The position numbers and the translations under genes are program-made. DNA of 25,825 nt from a virus: IMG/VR virus record IMGVR_UViG_3300003690_000118, positions 1-25,825 of that record; one strand, 5' to 3'. Within the stretch, counting starts at the first letter, position 1. Every line of letters starts with the position of its first letter. Below, piece after piece: positions 5,754 through 22,280 of this stretch. The notes below the pieces were generated by a model. It saw only the letters and a list, made by a program, of their open reading frames with translations. It ran no database searches and was not told the origin of the DNA.

Positions 5754-6176
5754 TTATGATCCAGATGTCAAATTAAATGTAGGATCTAGATCTTTTGGAT
5801 GTTCCACTCTACATATTACCTGATCATCAAATAACAATATTAATCGTACCGATTTATAGAATAATTTCTGACCAGCATGTTTAGCATAACAAACAAAGTC
5901 TCCTTCTCTACACCATGTTCCATTGGGGAATTTTACCTCGTCCTGATAAGCTAAATCTCCAATTGATATAACCTTTCCTACTGTGGTAAGATAGGCCATA
6001 TCATCTCTGGTAGAATCTGGAAGTACAATACCTCCCTTTGTTACACCCTTTATACTTACTGGTCTTACCAGAATATGATATCCCGGTAACTCTGGTAAAG
6101 GACTCGGATCTTTGATCTCGTCCTCTGTAATCCACATATCATTCTTCATTGCTTTTCCTAGTTGTACTTGTTGCAT
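5754..6176 (-). CDS. GroES-like co-chaperonin (Cpn10)
   Basis: A 140-residue homologue of GroES, the lid of the GroEL folding chamber. Residues 32-120 match the Cpn10 fold: PGYHILVRPV at the start of the barrel, the mobile loop with GVTKGGIVLPDS (the hydrophobic IVL triplet that binds GroEL at 50-52), VGKVISIGDLAY, and a closing KLFYKSVRLILLFDDQVICRV. It is longer than bacterial GroES (about 95 residues) because of a 30-residue N-terminal extension and a short C-terminal tail. Lying directly before scaffold and capsid genes, it probably adapts host GroEL for capsid folding, as T4 gp31 does. Start ATG 6176 immediately follows the preceding stop. Confidence 0.85.
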   Translation of the reverse strand: MQQVQLGKAMKNDMWITEDEIKDPSPLPELPGYHILVRPVSIKGVTKGGIVLPDSTRDDMAYLTTVGKVISIGDLAYQDEVKFPNGTWCREGDFVCYAKHAGQKLFYKSVRLILLFDDQVICRVEHPKDLDPTFNLTSGS

Positions 6177-6368
6177 TTACTCCTCTTCGTCATACATTCG
6201 TTTTTTTAAAGTAGTTGTAAAAACCTCACGGCTCCATTCAATACCTTGAATGTGACCTACAAGCTCCCTGTAATGTGAATAACTTTCAGCATTACCGTTA
6301 GCTACAATATTTTTTAATCGTAGTAATTCAGTATTATATTCCTTTACTACTTCATCCCATATTTCCAT
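6177..6368 (-). CDS. Small helical protein, unknown
   Basis: A 63-residue acidic protein, predicted mostly helical, with the pattern YSHYRELVGHIQGIEWSREV in its middle. Short proteins with a comparable Y-x-x-L-x-G-x-I-x-G motif are common near phage head genes, but I cannot attach a function. Its ATG at 6368 shares a base with the TAA stop of the preceding membrane peptide (TAATG), and its own stop is followed at once by the ATG of the GroES-like gene, so three to four genes here are translated as a coupled chain. Confidence 0.65.
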   Translation of the reverse strand: MEIWDEVVKEYNTELLRLKNIVANGNAESYSHYRELVGHIQGIEWSREVFTTTLKKRMYDEEE

Positions 6369-6466
6369 TAAGTTATTACCAGTACTAGTATAGCAATACT
6401 AATAGCACTAAGGGCAATCCAAGATGGCACATCCATCTTATTATAAATCTTATTTAGAAATTTCAT
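6368..6466 (-). CDS. 32-residue single-helix membrane peptide
   Basis: A very short frame, MKFLNKIYNKMD followed by VPSWIALSAISIAILVLVIT, that is one continuous hydrophobic helix of about 18 residues behind a short basic N-terminus. The ATG overlaps the TGA stop of the PqqA-like gene (ATGA), and its TAA overlaps the next ATG (TAATG), which supports its being translated by coupling. It could be a small inner-membrane peptide of unknown role; holin function is possible but nothing supports it over other roles. Too short to assign to a family. Confidence 0.6.
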   Translation of the reverse strand: MKFLNKIYNKMDVPSWIALSAISIAILVLVIT

Positions 6467-6537
6467 AGTTCTGCACATGCATAACAATTAATTTCAAGAC
6501 CTACGGAAATTTCACGTATAATTGGTTTTGACCACAT
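6463..6537 (-). CDS. pqqA: PqqA-like peptide (PQQ precursor homologue)
   Basis: A 24-residue peptide beginning MWSKPIIREIS. PqqA is the ribosomally made peptide whose Glu and Tyr side chains are cross-linked by PqqE and cut out to form the redox cofactor pyrroloquinoline quinone. Bacterial PqqA is 23-29 residues, starts MW-x-K-P or similar, and has Gly-x-Glu-x-x-x-Tyr with Glu15 and Tyr19. Here GLEINCY places Gly13, Leu14, Glu15 and Tyr19 at exactly those positions, and the ending ACAEL recalls alphaproteobacterial forms. ATG 6537 has AAGGAGAA 8 bases upstream, and the stop overlaps the next start. No pqqB-E genes are in the window, so any maturation would need host enzymes. The match is from memory of PqqA sequences. 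Confidence 0.75.
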   Translation of the reverse strand: MWSKPIIREISVGLEINCYACAEL

Positions 6538-6551
6538 AATTAATATTCTCC

Positions 6552-6809
6552 TTATGTTCTAACTGGTTTGGGATATTTCCATCCAGAATCTGGACGTTCA
6601 TTCAGAACACCTTTACGTGCTCGTGCTCCAGTTCCACCATCATCAATGGAACGATTGGTAAAGTTACCATACAGATCTTTAACTTTACCGGAAACATGTT
6701 CTGGATAACCATTCGTAATACCACGATCATCATTAGGCACATGAGTTGGATATCCATTTGTCTTACCCTTTATATCATTAGGATAGTGTACTCCTCCATA
6801 TTTAGGCAT
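6552..6809 (-). CDS. Unknown 85-residue protein with tandem NGYP repeats
   Basis: A hydrophilic, Gly/Pro/Asn-rich protein. Residues 8-38 hold two tandem copies of a 15-residue unit of the form x-P-N-D-x-x-G-x-T-N-G-Y-P-x-H, and the rest is Gly/Arg-rich with RSIDDGGTGARARKG. No transmembrane segment and little predicted helix. Its start at 6809 overlaps the end of the coiled-coil gene by 8 bases, and its stop overlaps the ribosome-binding site of the PqqA-like gene. Position between portal and scaffold suggests a minor virion protein, but nothing in the sequence proves this. Confidence 0.6.
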   Translation of the reverse strand: MPKYGGVHYPNDIKGKTNGYPTHVPNDDRGITNGYPEHVSGKVKDLYGNFTNRSIDDGGTGARARKGVLNERPDSGWKYPKPVRT

Positions 6810-7191
6810 TGTTATCTCCTTGTTTATTTGATAGTTGCATCTGTGTCATTAATTCAGCTAATTTAATATCTTTTTCTTTTTCGATATCAGCGGCCTTTTC
6901 AAGCATTCGTCCTTTTAAATTCTTTTCAGCTATTTGTGTTTTTTGTTCTTCCACTGACAACTTAGCTAATACTTCAAGTGATTTTAATGTTTCTTTACTT
7001 ACTCTATCAAGTTCAGACTTTTCTTTTTTCATAAGAGCAGATTGCCCTTCAGCAGCCGCTTCCTTGAGAAGCTTAACCTGTTCTAATTTCAGTTTCTGTG
7101 CATCCAAGGCAGCTTCTGCTGTATTACTGGCAGCATCCAATTGTAATTTCTGCTGTTGAAGTTCAACCTTTTTCTGTTCAAGAATTTGCAT
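6802..7191 (-). CDS. Coiled-coil protein downstream of portal
   Basis: A 129-residue protein composed almost wholly of Lys, Glu, Gln, Leu and Ala with heptad spacing over residues 1-115 (LEQKKVELQQQKLQLDAASN near the start), predicted to be one long coiled coil. It ends in a short polar tail. Its start lies 14 bases inside the end of the portal gene and its end overlaps the next start, so it is translationally coupled on both sides. In phages a coiled-coil protein directly after portal may be an assembly helper or an internal head or neck component; sequence alone does not tell. Confidence 0.65.
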   Translation of the reverse strand: MQILEQKKVELQQQKLQLDAASNTAEAALDAQKLKLEQVKLLKEAAAEGQSALMKKEKSELDRVSKETLKSLEVLAKLSVEEQKTQIAEKNLKGRMLEKAADIEKEKDIKLAELMTQMQLSNKQGDNNA

Positions 7192-9298
7192 TCAGTACCT
7201 GTTGTGCAGCTTCGGCCATTATTGCTTCTGCAATCTGTGGATTCTGTGGTCCAACTTGCTCCATCCCTGTTTTTGTAAGTCCATTAATTTGTTCCTGATA
7301 TTTTAGAATCATATGTTCCTGAACATTTGCTTCCAGTACAGGTTTAATTCTTTGCATAATCGGATTTGCTCCATTTAAAGGATCTTGAAGAAATGCCATC
7401 TTAACCTGAACATGAGCATCATGATTCTGACCGGGGAAAGCTCCAATAGGCATTCCTTTTGTTGCAGCCATTATATCCGATACAGGATCAAGAGGTTGTG
7501 GTTTTTGTTTTGGTGGAAGTATCTCTTCCAAATTAGGCATGTTTGCTGCATTAAGAATGGTTCTACTCAATGCTTCTAAATTAAACATGCCGGGAGGAGA
7601 TTGCTGGGCCATTTGCATAGCCATTTGTGCAATCATAAGACGGTGAGCATTGGATGGAATATTTGGATCACTGACGGGAATCACGTCCACTCTTCCATCA
7701 AAATCGGATTTATAGATGCTCCGACTTTCGTATGGCACATCATACGGATATTCACTTGGGAGATAATCATAGTCGATTCTTGCCAAAATCCTAAATTCAT
7801 CTCTTTGAGATTTATGTAATCTCTTATGAATTGCAGAGAAGAATTTACTGGAGGCTTCCAGTAGTGCCATCGTTGTACCTACAGGACCATAAGAAGATGC
7901 TTCCGATACCATTGATTCTGTACTGTCGGCAAACTTCTGTCCTGCCTGAGTTATAAAACCCAACATCTGGAACAAGGTTTGAGAAGGCTCTTTATAAGGA
8001 AGAGGAACGATAGCCTTTGCCAAGTCCATGCCTGTAGATTCAACTTCTTTAAACTCACCGGGGCTAATAGGATCATTGTCTCCAACCATCCTGACACCTT
8101 TTGCCTTAAATCCTCCCGGCAGATTTGCAAATTGACCTGCATCAATGAGACTTCTCATTGCTGCTGTTGCACTCATAGTTAGATTTCCTAGGAAGTGCAT
8201 CAGGCCAAGACCGTAGAAACCAAACCCCGGTACGAATCTATAATGGACAAAGTGACTTATCTTTTCTTTATTCGGATCATCAGGTTTATAGTTTCTACGG
8301 ATACATAAAACATTTTTGGATTGTTCTTCTATTGTTACAATATAGGGAAGTGCAATTCCCTCTTCTGCATTAGGTTCGTCTATCTCTAAATAACAATGCT
8401 GTTCCAATAGAACATATTGTGGATCAGTATCCTGTGTTGGAGAGAACCCTAATATTGTATCCATCTTGGATGCAAATGCAGTGGGTTGTGGATTTGTTGC
8501 CGTTGGTAATTCCGTATTGGCATATATACCAGAACGAATATCTTTTGCCAGATCAATCGGACTACGATAAATTACATGAGTATACCTATCAGCTTTACGT
8601 AAGTTGCTGGCATAGTAAGATACATAAAATTGATCAATAGGTACAAATTCTGCTACAGGTCGTTTCAGATTTGCATCGTAATATAATTTCTTGAATGCAG
8701 AACCTATCAATGGTAGATGAAAGAGCATCTTTTCAAATTCGTCAAAGTACTCTGGCATCTGCTCCGTAAGCTGATAGTTCATAAAGTTCTTGACACGGTT
8801 GGCTTGCATCTCACGTTCCTGTGTAGACTTACCAAGTATCTGTGTCTTTACCGGACCTGCTGATGGGAAAAGTTCCTGTGATGCTTTACTCTGGAATTTA
8901 ACTGCTGATTCTACCAGAAGGGGATGGACTGCACTACATGCACCTTCAAATGGTTCGGATGATTCCTGTATCTTTAATCCAAGTAAATCGAATCCACGTT
9001 CAAACATGGACTCCCATTCCTGTCGGGAGTTCTTATCTGCATCATAACTATTATATACAGTTGAAGATATCTCCCCTAATGTTTCATCATCCAATGCTTC
9101 AGCTAAATTAACATACCATTCTTTTACAGGAGCTTCTGCTTCCATTACAACCGTACTGGCAAAATCAACTATTACACCACCATCAGGCTCTACTTCAAAT
9201 GTTGCTTCCCGTTCCTCATCTACTGGAACAGGATTCATTGGGACTACATTTGTAATTTCCTGTGGTATTTGTTCAAATGGATTTCGTTCTGTTGCCAT
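7178..9298 (-). CDS. Portal protein (head-tail connector)
   Basis: A 706-residue protein following the terminase gene, with the size and sequence character of the large portal proteins of P22-like and related podoviral phages; it would form the dodecameric DNA gate at one capsid vertex. Recognisable segments are SSEPFEGACSAVHPLLVESA (about 105-125) and KFQSKASQELFPSAGPVKTQ right after it, the stretch FEKMLFHLPLIGSAFKKLYYD (about 190-210), VPIDQFYVSY near residue 222, and FGFYGLGLMHFLGNL near residue 360. A Gln/Met-rich helical C-terminal region resembles a portal barrel. Start is ATG 9298 with GGGAAAA upstream, and a promoter lies at 9339-9367. The assignment is from pattern and gene order. 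Confidence 0.8.
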   Translation of the reverse strand: MATERNPFEQIPQEITNVVPMNPVPVDEEREATFEVEPDGGVIVDFASTVVMEAEAPVKEWYVNLAEALDDETLGEISSTVYNSYDADKNSRQEWESMFERGFDLLGLKIQESSEPFEGACSAVHPLLVESAVKFQSKASQELFPSAGPVKTQILGKSTQEREMQANRVKNFMNYQLTEQMPEYFDEFEKMLFHLPLIGSAFKKLYYDANLKRPVAEFVPIDQFYVSYYASNLRKADRYTHVIYRSPIDLAKDIRSGIYANTELPTATNPQPTAFASKMDTILGFSPTQDTDPQYVLLEQHCYLEIDEPNAEEGIALPYIVTIEEQSKNVLCIRRNYKPDDPNKEKISHFVHYRFVPGFGFYGLGLMHFLGNLTMSATAAMRSLIDAGQFANLPGGFKAKGVRMVGDNDPISPGEFKEVESTGMDLAKAIVPLPYKEPSQTLFQMLGFITQAGQKFADSTESMVSEASSYGPVGTTMALLEASSKFFSAIHKRLHKSQRDEFRILARIDYDYLPSEYPYDVPYESRSIYKSDFDGRVDVIPVSDPNIPSNAHRLMIAQMAMQMAQQSPPGMFNLEALSRTILNAANMPNLEEILPPKQKPQPLDPVSDIMAATKGMPIGAFPGQNHDAHVQVKMAFLQDPLNGANPIMQRIKPVLEANVQEHMILKYQEQINGLTKTGMEQVGPQNPQIAEAIMAEAAQQVLNANS

Positions 9299-21962: not shown

Positions 21963-22280
21963 ATGATAAGTATTACCGAAGAAGCTAATAAGCATCTCTC
22001 ACATATAGTTAAAGTGCAAGAAGTTAATGGGATAGAACTTGGTGTAAAGGGTGGTGGTTGTGCTGGGTTTACTTACGAATGGGACTTGGTAAAAGATATC
22101 CCTGAAAAGTATGATATAGTACCATTGCTTAATGGTAATTTATATGTTAGACCAGAGGCTATGATGTTTCTAATGAATGTAACTATAGATTATACAACTG
22201 GAATTAATGGTTCCTATATAGTATTTAAAAATCCTAATGCCACATCTCAGTGTGGATGTGGAGAAAGTTTTGGAGTATGA
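21963..22280 (+). CDS. IscA/HesB-like iron-sulfur carrier
   Basis: A 105-residue A-type iron-sulfur carrier protein. The three diagnostic cysteines are all present: Cys33 in VKGGGCAGFTYEW and Cys97 and Cys99 in SQCGCGESFGV, with 63 residues between the first and second as in the family. The fold-typical start ISITEEANKHL and the YTTGINGSYIVFKNPNA stretch also match. A-type carriers hand clusters to apo-proteins in the host ISC or SUF pathway. Here the likely clients may be a phage enzyme (the Cys-rich nuclease at 24737 or the GP88-like protein) or host proteins. Start ATG 21963 behind AGGAGATTG. Confidence 0.85.
   Translation: MISITEEANKHLSHIVKVQEVNGIELGVKGGGCAGFTYEWDLVKDIPEKYDIVPLLNGNLYVRPEAMMFLMNVTIDYTTGINGSYIVFKNPNATSQCGCGESFGV

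Follow-up and report, generated by a model that had tools for sequence, protein, structure and literature searches.

A phage head operon carries a 24-codon PqqA-like gene that may supply the precursor peptide for host PQQ synthesis

The frame at 6463..6537 (−) of the 25,825-nucleotide stretch of marine phage DNA analysed here (the window) is, as judged from its sequence, a genuine gene for the PqqA precursor peptide, and the phage probably uses it to supply this consumed substrate to the PQQ pathway of its host. Methanol dehydrogenase and other alcohol dehydrogenases important to ocean carbon flow use PQQ as their cofactor, and PqqA is the only product of a pathway gene to be consumed, one per PQQ made. 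Because it is consumed one-for-one, a phage could raise supply by adding the consumed substrate alone. At about 75 bases pqqA is among the smallest metabolic genes known, and its recurrence in about two hundred viral contigs, and in nine or more cultured phages whose hosts grow on methanol, indicates that it probably raises cofactor supply in the infected cell. We lean towards viewing this as a general phage strategy of supplying a consumed precursor peptide, in which the gene passes alone between unrelated phages of PQQ-making bacteria, raises the cofactor without any enzyme and is hidden by gene callers even in cultured phages.

The frame translates to MWSKPIIREISVGLEINCYACAEL, a 24-aa peptide that exceeded the curated cut-offs of two PqqA models, scoring 34.9 bits against TIGR02107 of NCBIfam (E 9.5e-9; cut-off 20) and 30.3 bits against PF08042 of Pfam (E 4.1e-7; cut-off 21.1). 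The TIGR02107 score is higher than those of genomic copies from host-type bacteria (20.5-31.9). Translation and both models agree with the original prediction of a PqqA-like peptide, with W2, P5, G13, L14, E15 and Y19 in the positions proposed. Glu15 and Tyr19 lie in a G-x-E-x-x-x-Y core and, by alignment, correspond to the glutamate and tyrosine joined by PqqE, which in M. extorquens are Glu16 and Tyr20 of PqqA (PMC10906245). No PHROG family matched the window peptide, which partly accounts for the gene being overlooked.

The gene belongs to a run on one strand comprising the terminase, the portal protein, small genes including pqqA, a GroES-like gene and the capsid region, the last assigned by gene order rather than by family match. 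The portal gene (7178..9298 (−); PHROG match) lies upstream in the same operon, and the immediate upstream neighbour encodes an 85-aa protein (6552..6809 (−)). A Shine-Dalgarno sequence, AAGGAG at 6548..6553 (−), is located 10 bases 5' of the pqqA ATG and overlaps the TAA of the 85-aa gene. On the downstream side, the TGA stop of pqqA overlaps the ATG of a gene for a 32-aa putative membrane peptide, MKFLNKIYNKMDVPSWIALSAISIAILVLVIT (6368..6466 (−)), in an ATGA at 6466-6463; beyond it lie a 63-aa conserved protein (MEIWDEV...; 6177..6368 (−)), which forms the downstream border of the variable slot, and the GroES-like co-chaperonin of the head module (5754..6176 (−); family matches). The ribosome-binding site, the coupling to the next gene and the location inside the head operon had all been noted originally and were borne out; the gene lies between the portal gene and the GroES/capsid-side genes. 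No promoter or terminator was evident at the pqqA slot, with two promoter-like sites against 4.1 expected.

Portal, terminase, GroES and DNA polymerase were all recognised in the window, marking it as a true phage genome, and the nearest named relatives by portal are Pelagibacter phage HTVC027P and Roseobacter phage CRP-902 (40-41% identity). The window is a fragment of 25.8 kb, compared with 52-61 kb in relatives. The earlier statement that no other pqq genes are visible holds for the window record, in which PqqD likewise had no match, and applies to that part of the genome; since the window is only 25.8 kb of a larger genome, further pqq genes may lie elsewhere in it. Two other features of the window were recorded. 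Five consecutive genes at 150-2582 (−) encode different proteins with a near-identical tail, GGKI(M/I)(Q/I)GYKAGGKV, resembling a shared C-terminal tag. A host-like gene at 21963-22280 (+) is of the IscA type for iron-sulfur cluster assembly (PF01521, E 7.7e-14); PqqE is an iron-sulfur enzyme, as are many other enzymes.

Related phages were fetched through the 85-aa neighbour, making their choice independent of the peptide, and 36 viral loci were obtained. A short frame with the G-x-E-x-x-x-Y pattern, anticipated in the same place in related phages, occupied the slot as a PqqA frame in 23 of the 36. In the other 13 loci the 85-aa gene runs into the membrane-peptide gene or, in three cases (L018, L033 and L035), into the 63-aa gene. 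A diverged PqqA hidden in these pqqA-negative contigs was considered and rejected, the junctions having been read and a TIGR02107 search of the records having returned none.

Conservation was counted on the neighbour-fetched loci, replacing a count on loci fetched by peptide pattern that was biased by the patterns. Across 24 copies including the window (14 distinct DNA sequences, 10 peptides), pN was 0.113 and pS 0.351, giving a pN/pS of 0.32, and variable sites at codon positions 1, 2 and 3 numbered 9, 4 and 16, respectively. The VGLEINCY core was invariant in all 24 copies, including Glu15 and Tyr19, the two residues on whose conservation in homologous phage frames the original prediction depended, and the C-terminal ACAEL was likewise conserved in the phage peptides. 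AAGGAG was present in nearly all same-slot relatives, and this ribosome site and the reading frame were kept across divergent phages. The pN/pS ratio, the codon-position pattern and the kept ribosome site together establish that pqqA evolves under selection as a protein. A frame of only 24 residues might by its length be suspected of being a chance look-alike unrelated to PqqA, but scores above two curated cut-offs and position and sequence conserved in 23 of 36 relatives leave that explanation virtually no probability, and we regard it as already refuted by the conservation.

When the presence of pqqA was mapped on a tree built from both flanking genes (438 columns), five changes were required, of which well-supported branches force three or more. 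The closest relative, L001, is the sister of the window with flanks 94% identical and is without pqqA; comparison of the two junctions indicates that the insert is essentially the pqqA gene and its ribosome site. pqqA is therefore a swapped accessory gene, gained and lost as a unit. Patchy presence of this kind, with its forced changes and a close relative without the gene, would also suit a passive passenger, that is, a captured host fragment that brings no benefit and is soon lost. Such a fragment is a very improbable explanation, however, given the pN/pS of 0.32, the ribosome site and frame conserved over divergent phages, and the retention of the same gene in unrelated lineages that share just this gene of about 72 bp.

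A broad DNA pattern recovered at least 120 viral stretches, of which the translated ones were PqqA-like frames, and viral frames of this kind fall into two types, one GLEIN[CS]YACAE-like (alpha type) and a second type. IMG/VR viral contigs were then scanned for replaced reacting residues, with the Glu15 codon changed at its first base and the Tyr19 codon at its second. The intact alpha-type pattern was present in at least 120 viral copies, and among the codons scanned, which left out Glu to Asp, Ala, Gly or Val and Tyr to His, Asn, Asp, Lys, Gln or Glu and required the remaining motif to match, there were no alpha-type copies with Glu15 replaced and none with Tyr19 replaced; the other peptide type likewise gave no copies with Glu replaced and none with Tyr replaced. 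A control with Cys18 replaced in the same pattern recovered 86 viral copies, so the method does detect changes one codon away.

These scans bear on any role other than that of a substrate, because a decoy or a peptide with another function would be expected to occur also in copies lacking the two reacting residues. As a decoy, the peptide would occupy PqqD/PqqE and lower host PQQ, or divert the radical SAM enzyme. Its likeness to the host peptide would be sufficient to compete for PqqD and PqqE, and excess peptide would follow from strong expression. A trap, however, needs docking residues and not both reacting side chains, yet among the codons scanned copies with Glu15 or Tyr19 replaced were absent in both types while the adjacent residue 18 does vary, and a full substrate would end up as PQQ. 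We accordingly consider a decoy very unlikely.

On the host side, an alpha-type scan of bacterial genomes returned 37 loci, all titled alphaproteobacteria and many of them marine, with pqqB (its product recognised by its start) as the next gene downstream in most. The original prediction had named hosts without pqqCDE as a finding that would count against it; bacteria with the same peptide type instead carry PqqE, which scored above cut-off in all 15 genomes checked, and 11 of these 15 also had a PQQ alcohol dehydrogenase above cut-off. Linkage to pqqB-E, usual but not obligatory, is thus found for most bacterial copies of the type and is missing in the phage. PqqE was above cut-off in none of the 52 phage records searched, so the phage peptide would depend on host enzymes. 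The likeness of the window peptide to those of the bacteria (20/24 residues), together with the other phages, suggests that the window phage infects a PQQ-making host of this kind. A second pqqA, away from pqqB and beside a conserved LysR-type regulator gene, was observed in alphaproteobacterial loci L158, L159, L160, L164, L166, L168, L175, L183, L191 and L193, an arrangement suggesting that bacteria likewise tune the amount of the peptide.

The peptide might alternatively have been re-purposed, becoming, after modification by a PqqE-like enzyme, a different small molecule or a signal from which the phage benefits. PqqA is indeed one member of the broader class of peptides that are made on ribosomes and then modified, and conservation in the phages extends to the C-terminal ACAEL; the C-terminal part is, however, equally conserved in bacterial PqqA beside pqqB, most differences between the phage and bacterial versions lie in the N-terminal half, and the 52 records searched contain no phage-encoded PqqE. 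Re-purposing is therefore an unlikely reading.

Among the three roles originally put forward, substrate supply by an auxiliary metabolic gene fits best, and decoy and re-purposing are unneeded and disfavoured. Under substrate supply, the peptide would be made from the head-gene operon, host PqqD would bind its N-terminal part and host PqqE would join Glu15 to Tyr19, after which a host protease, PqqB and PqqC would complete PQQ and host PQQ-dependent dehydrogenases would keep electrons flowing to respiration during infection. We infer the processing of the peptide, the rise in PQQ and the benefit to the phage. If the peptide limits supply, adding PqqA alone would be the cheapest route to more PQQ. 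In Acetobacter pasteurianus, PQQ rose by 29% with plasmid-borne pqqAB and eightfold with the whole cluster (PMC7936290), so the peptide by itself may have a modest effect that depends on the host. Placement among structural genes fits high, stoichiometric supply but is also compatible with a by-product of small-gene insertion sites. Against supply, a structural operon is an unusual site for a metabolic gene and many close relatives manage without pqqA; in its favour, pqqA occurs in at least three unrelated lineages of cultured methylotroph phages.

A total of 246 viral loci were gathered, a few being the same contig twice, and pqqA occurs in about two hundred viral contigs. Their gene neighbourhoods form many unrelated sets, over-counted owing to short contigs. 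Searches of named phages by tblastn with the window peptide and with a related alpha-type peptide gave no match. The second-type peptide matched 12 named-phage records, including nine of Methylophilales/Methylophilaceae phages (Venkman, P19250A, MEP301, MEP401, MEP402 and four Melnitz), of which about 18 are named in the taxonomy, although the searched collection may not contain all of these. The cultured methylophages with pqqA come from three or more unrelated groups (PMC10580990). When MEP402 is compared with the other methylophages, leaving aside its sister MEP401, the sole DNA match in the region is pqqA itself (about 60-95 bases, 79-84% identity). As expected of a peptide below usual gene-calling limits, the frame has no annotated feature in Venkman, P19250A, MEP301, MEP401 and MEP402, and in Melnitz-1 a hypothetical gene is annotated over it on the opposite strand. 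Among the OM43/LD28 phage loci (L194-L198; Venkman, P19250A, MEP301, MEP402 and Melnitz-1), pqqA lies on the strand opposite its immediate flanking genes in Venkman and MEP301. A PqqA-like stretch of 18 residues also matched weakly (78%, E 0.01) in assemblies of Acinetobacter phage MD-2021a (CAKLQF020000010.1 and CAKLQH020000055.1).

pqqA in phages is thus far commoner than the searched literature indicates. No reports of the gene in cultured methylophages were found in that literature, which covers few subscription journals, and PQQ is unmentioned in the main text of one 2024 ocean catalogue paper. If substrate supply is the correct reading, a gene of 24 codons that standard annotation discards would represent a very economical control of a host pathway. 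This reading is testable at once, as cultured methylotroph phages (Venkman, MEP301, MEP401/402, Melnitz and P19250A) carry pqqA, and the case serves as a warning that peptide-sized genes can escape surveys of metabolic genes in phages.

Compared with known systems, the best match to the window peptide is a marine alphaproteobacterial PqqA of the same length, MWKKPEIREVAVGLEINCYACAEL (L162, L170, L181 and L184, titled Rhodospirillaceae), with 20 of 24 residues shared. The two are identical in VGLEINCYACAEL, the differences falling mainly in the N-terminal half, and the bacterial copy stands directly before pqqB whereas the window copy is alone in the head-gene operon. HTVC027P, which has a related portal, also resembles the window in gene order, with a series of small genes separating its portal gene from a GroES gene further downstream; no PqqA was found in the entire records of HTVC027P (host Pelagibacter HTCC1062) or CRP-902 (host Roseobacter FZCC0083). 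Venkman, P19250A, MEP301, MEP401, MEP402 and Melnitz share with the window a PqqA frame of 23-24 aa that is un-annotated or overlapped by a hypothetical gene, and differ from it in peptide type, phage family and gene neighbours. A phage-borne PqqA was proposed as an auxiliary metabolic gene in the Lake Baikal phage population VP_266 (PMC7678222, Microbiome 2020), and a study of reservoir sediments lists pqqA among genes carried by viruses (PMC13188868). VP_266 is a T4-like phage of Methylophilaceae that carries a methanol dehydrogenase, whereas the phage studied here resembles HTVC027P in its portal and we saw no dehydrogenase within the window. Phage PqqA has therefore been known since 2020, and to this the window adds a phage lineage, a peptide type and evidence concerning both selection and the reacting residues, and the gene is shown to be common.
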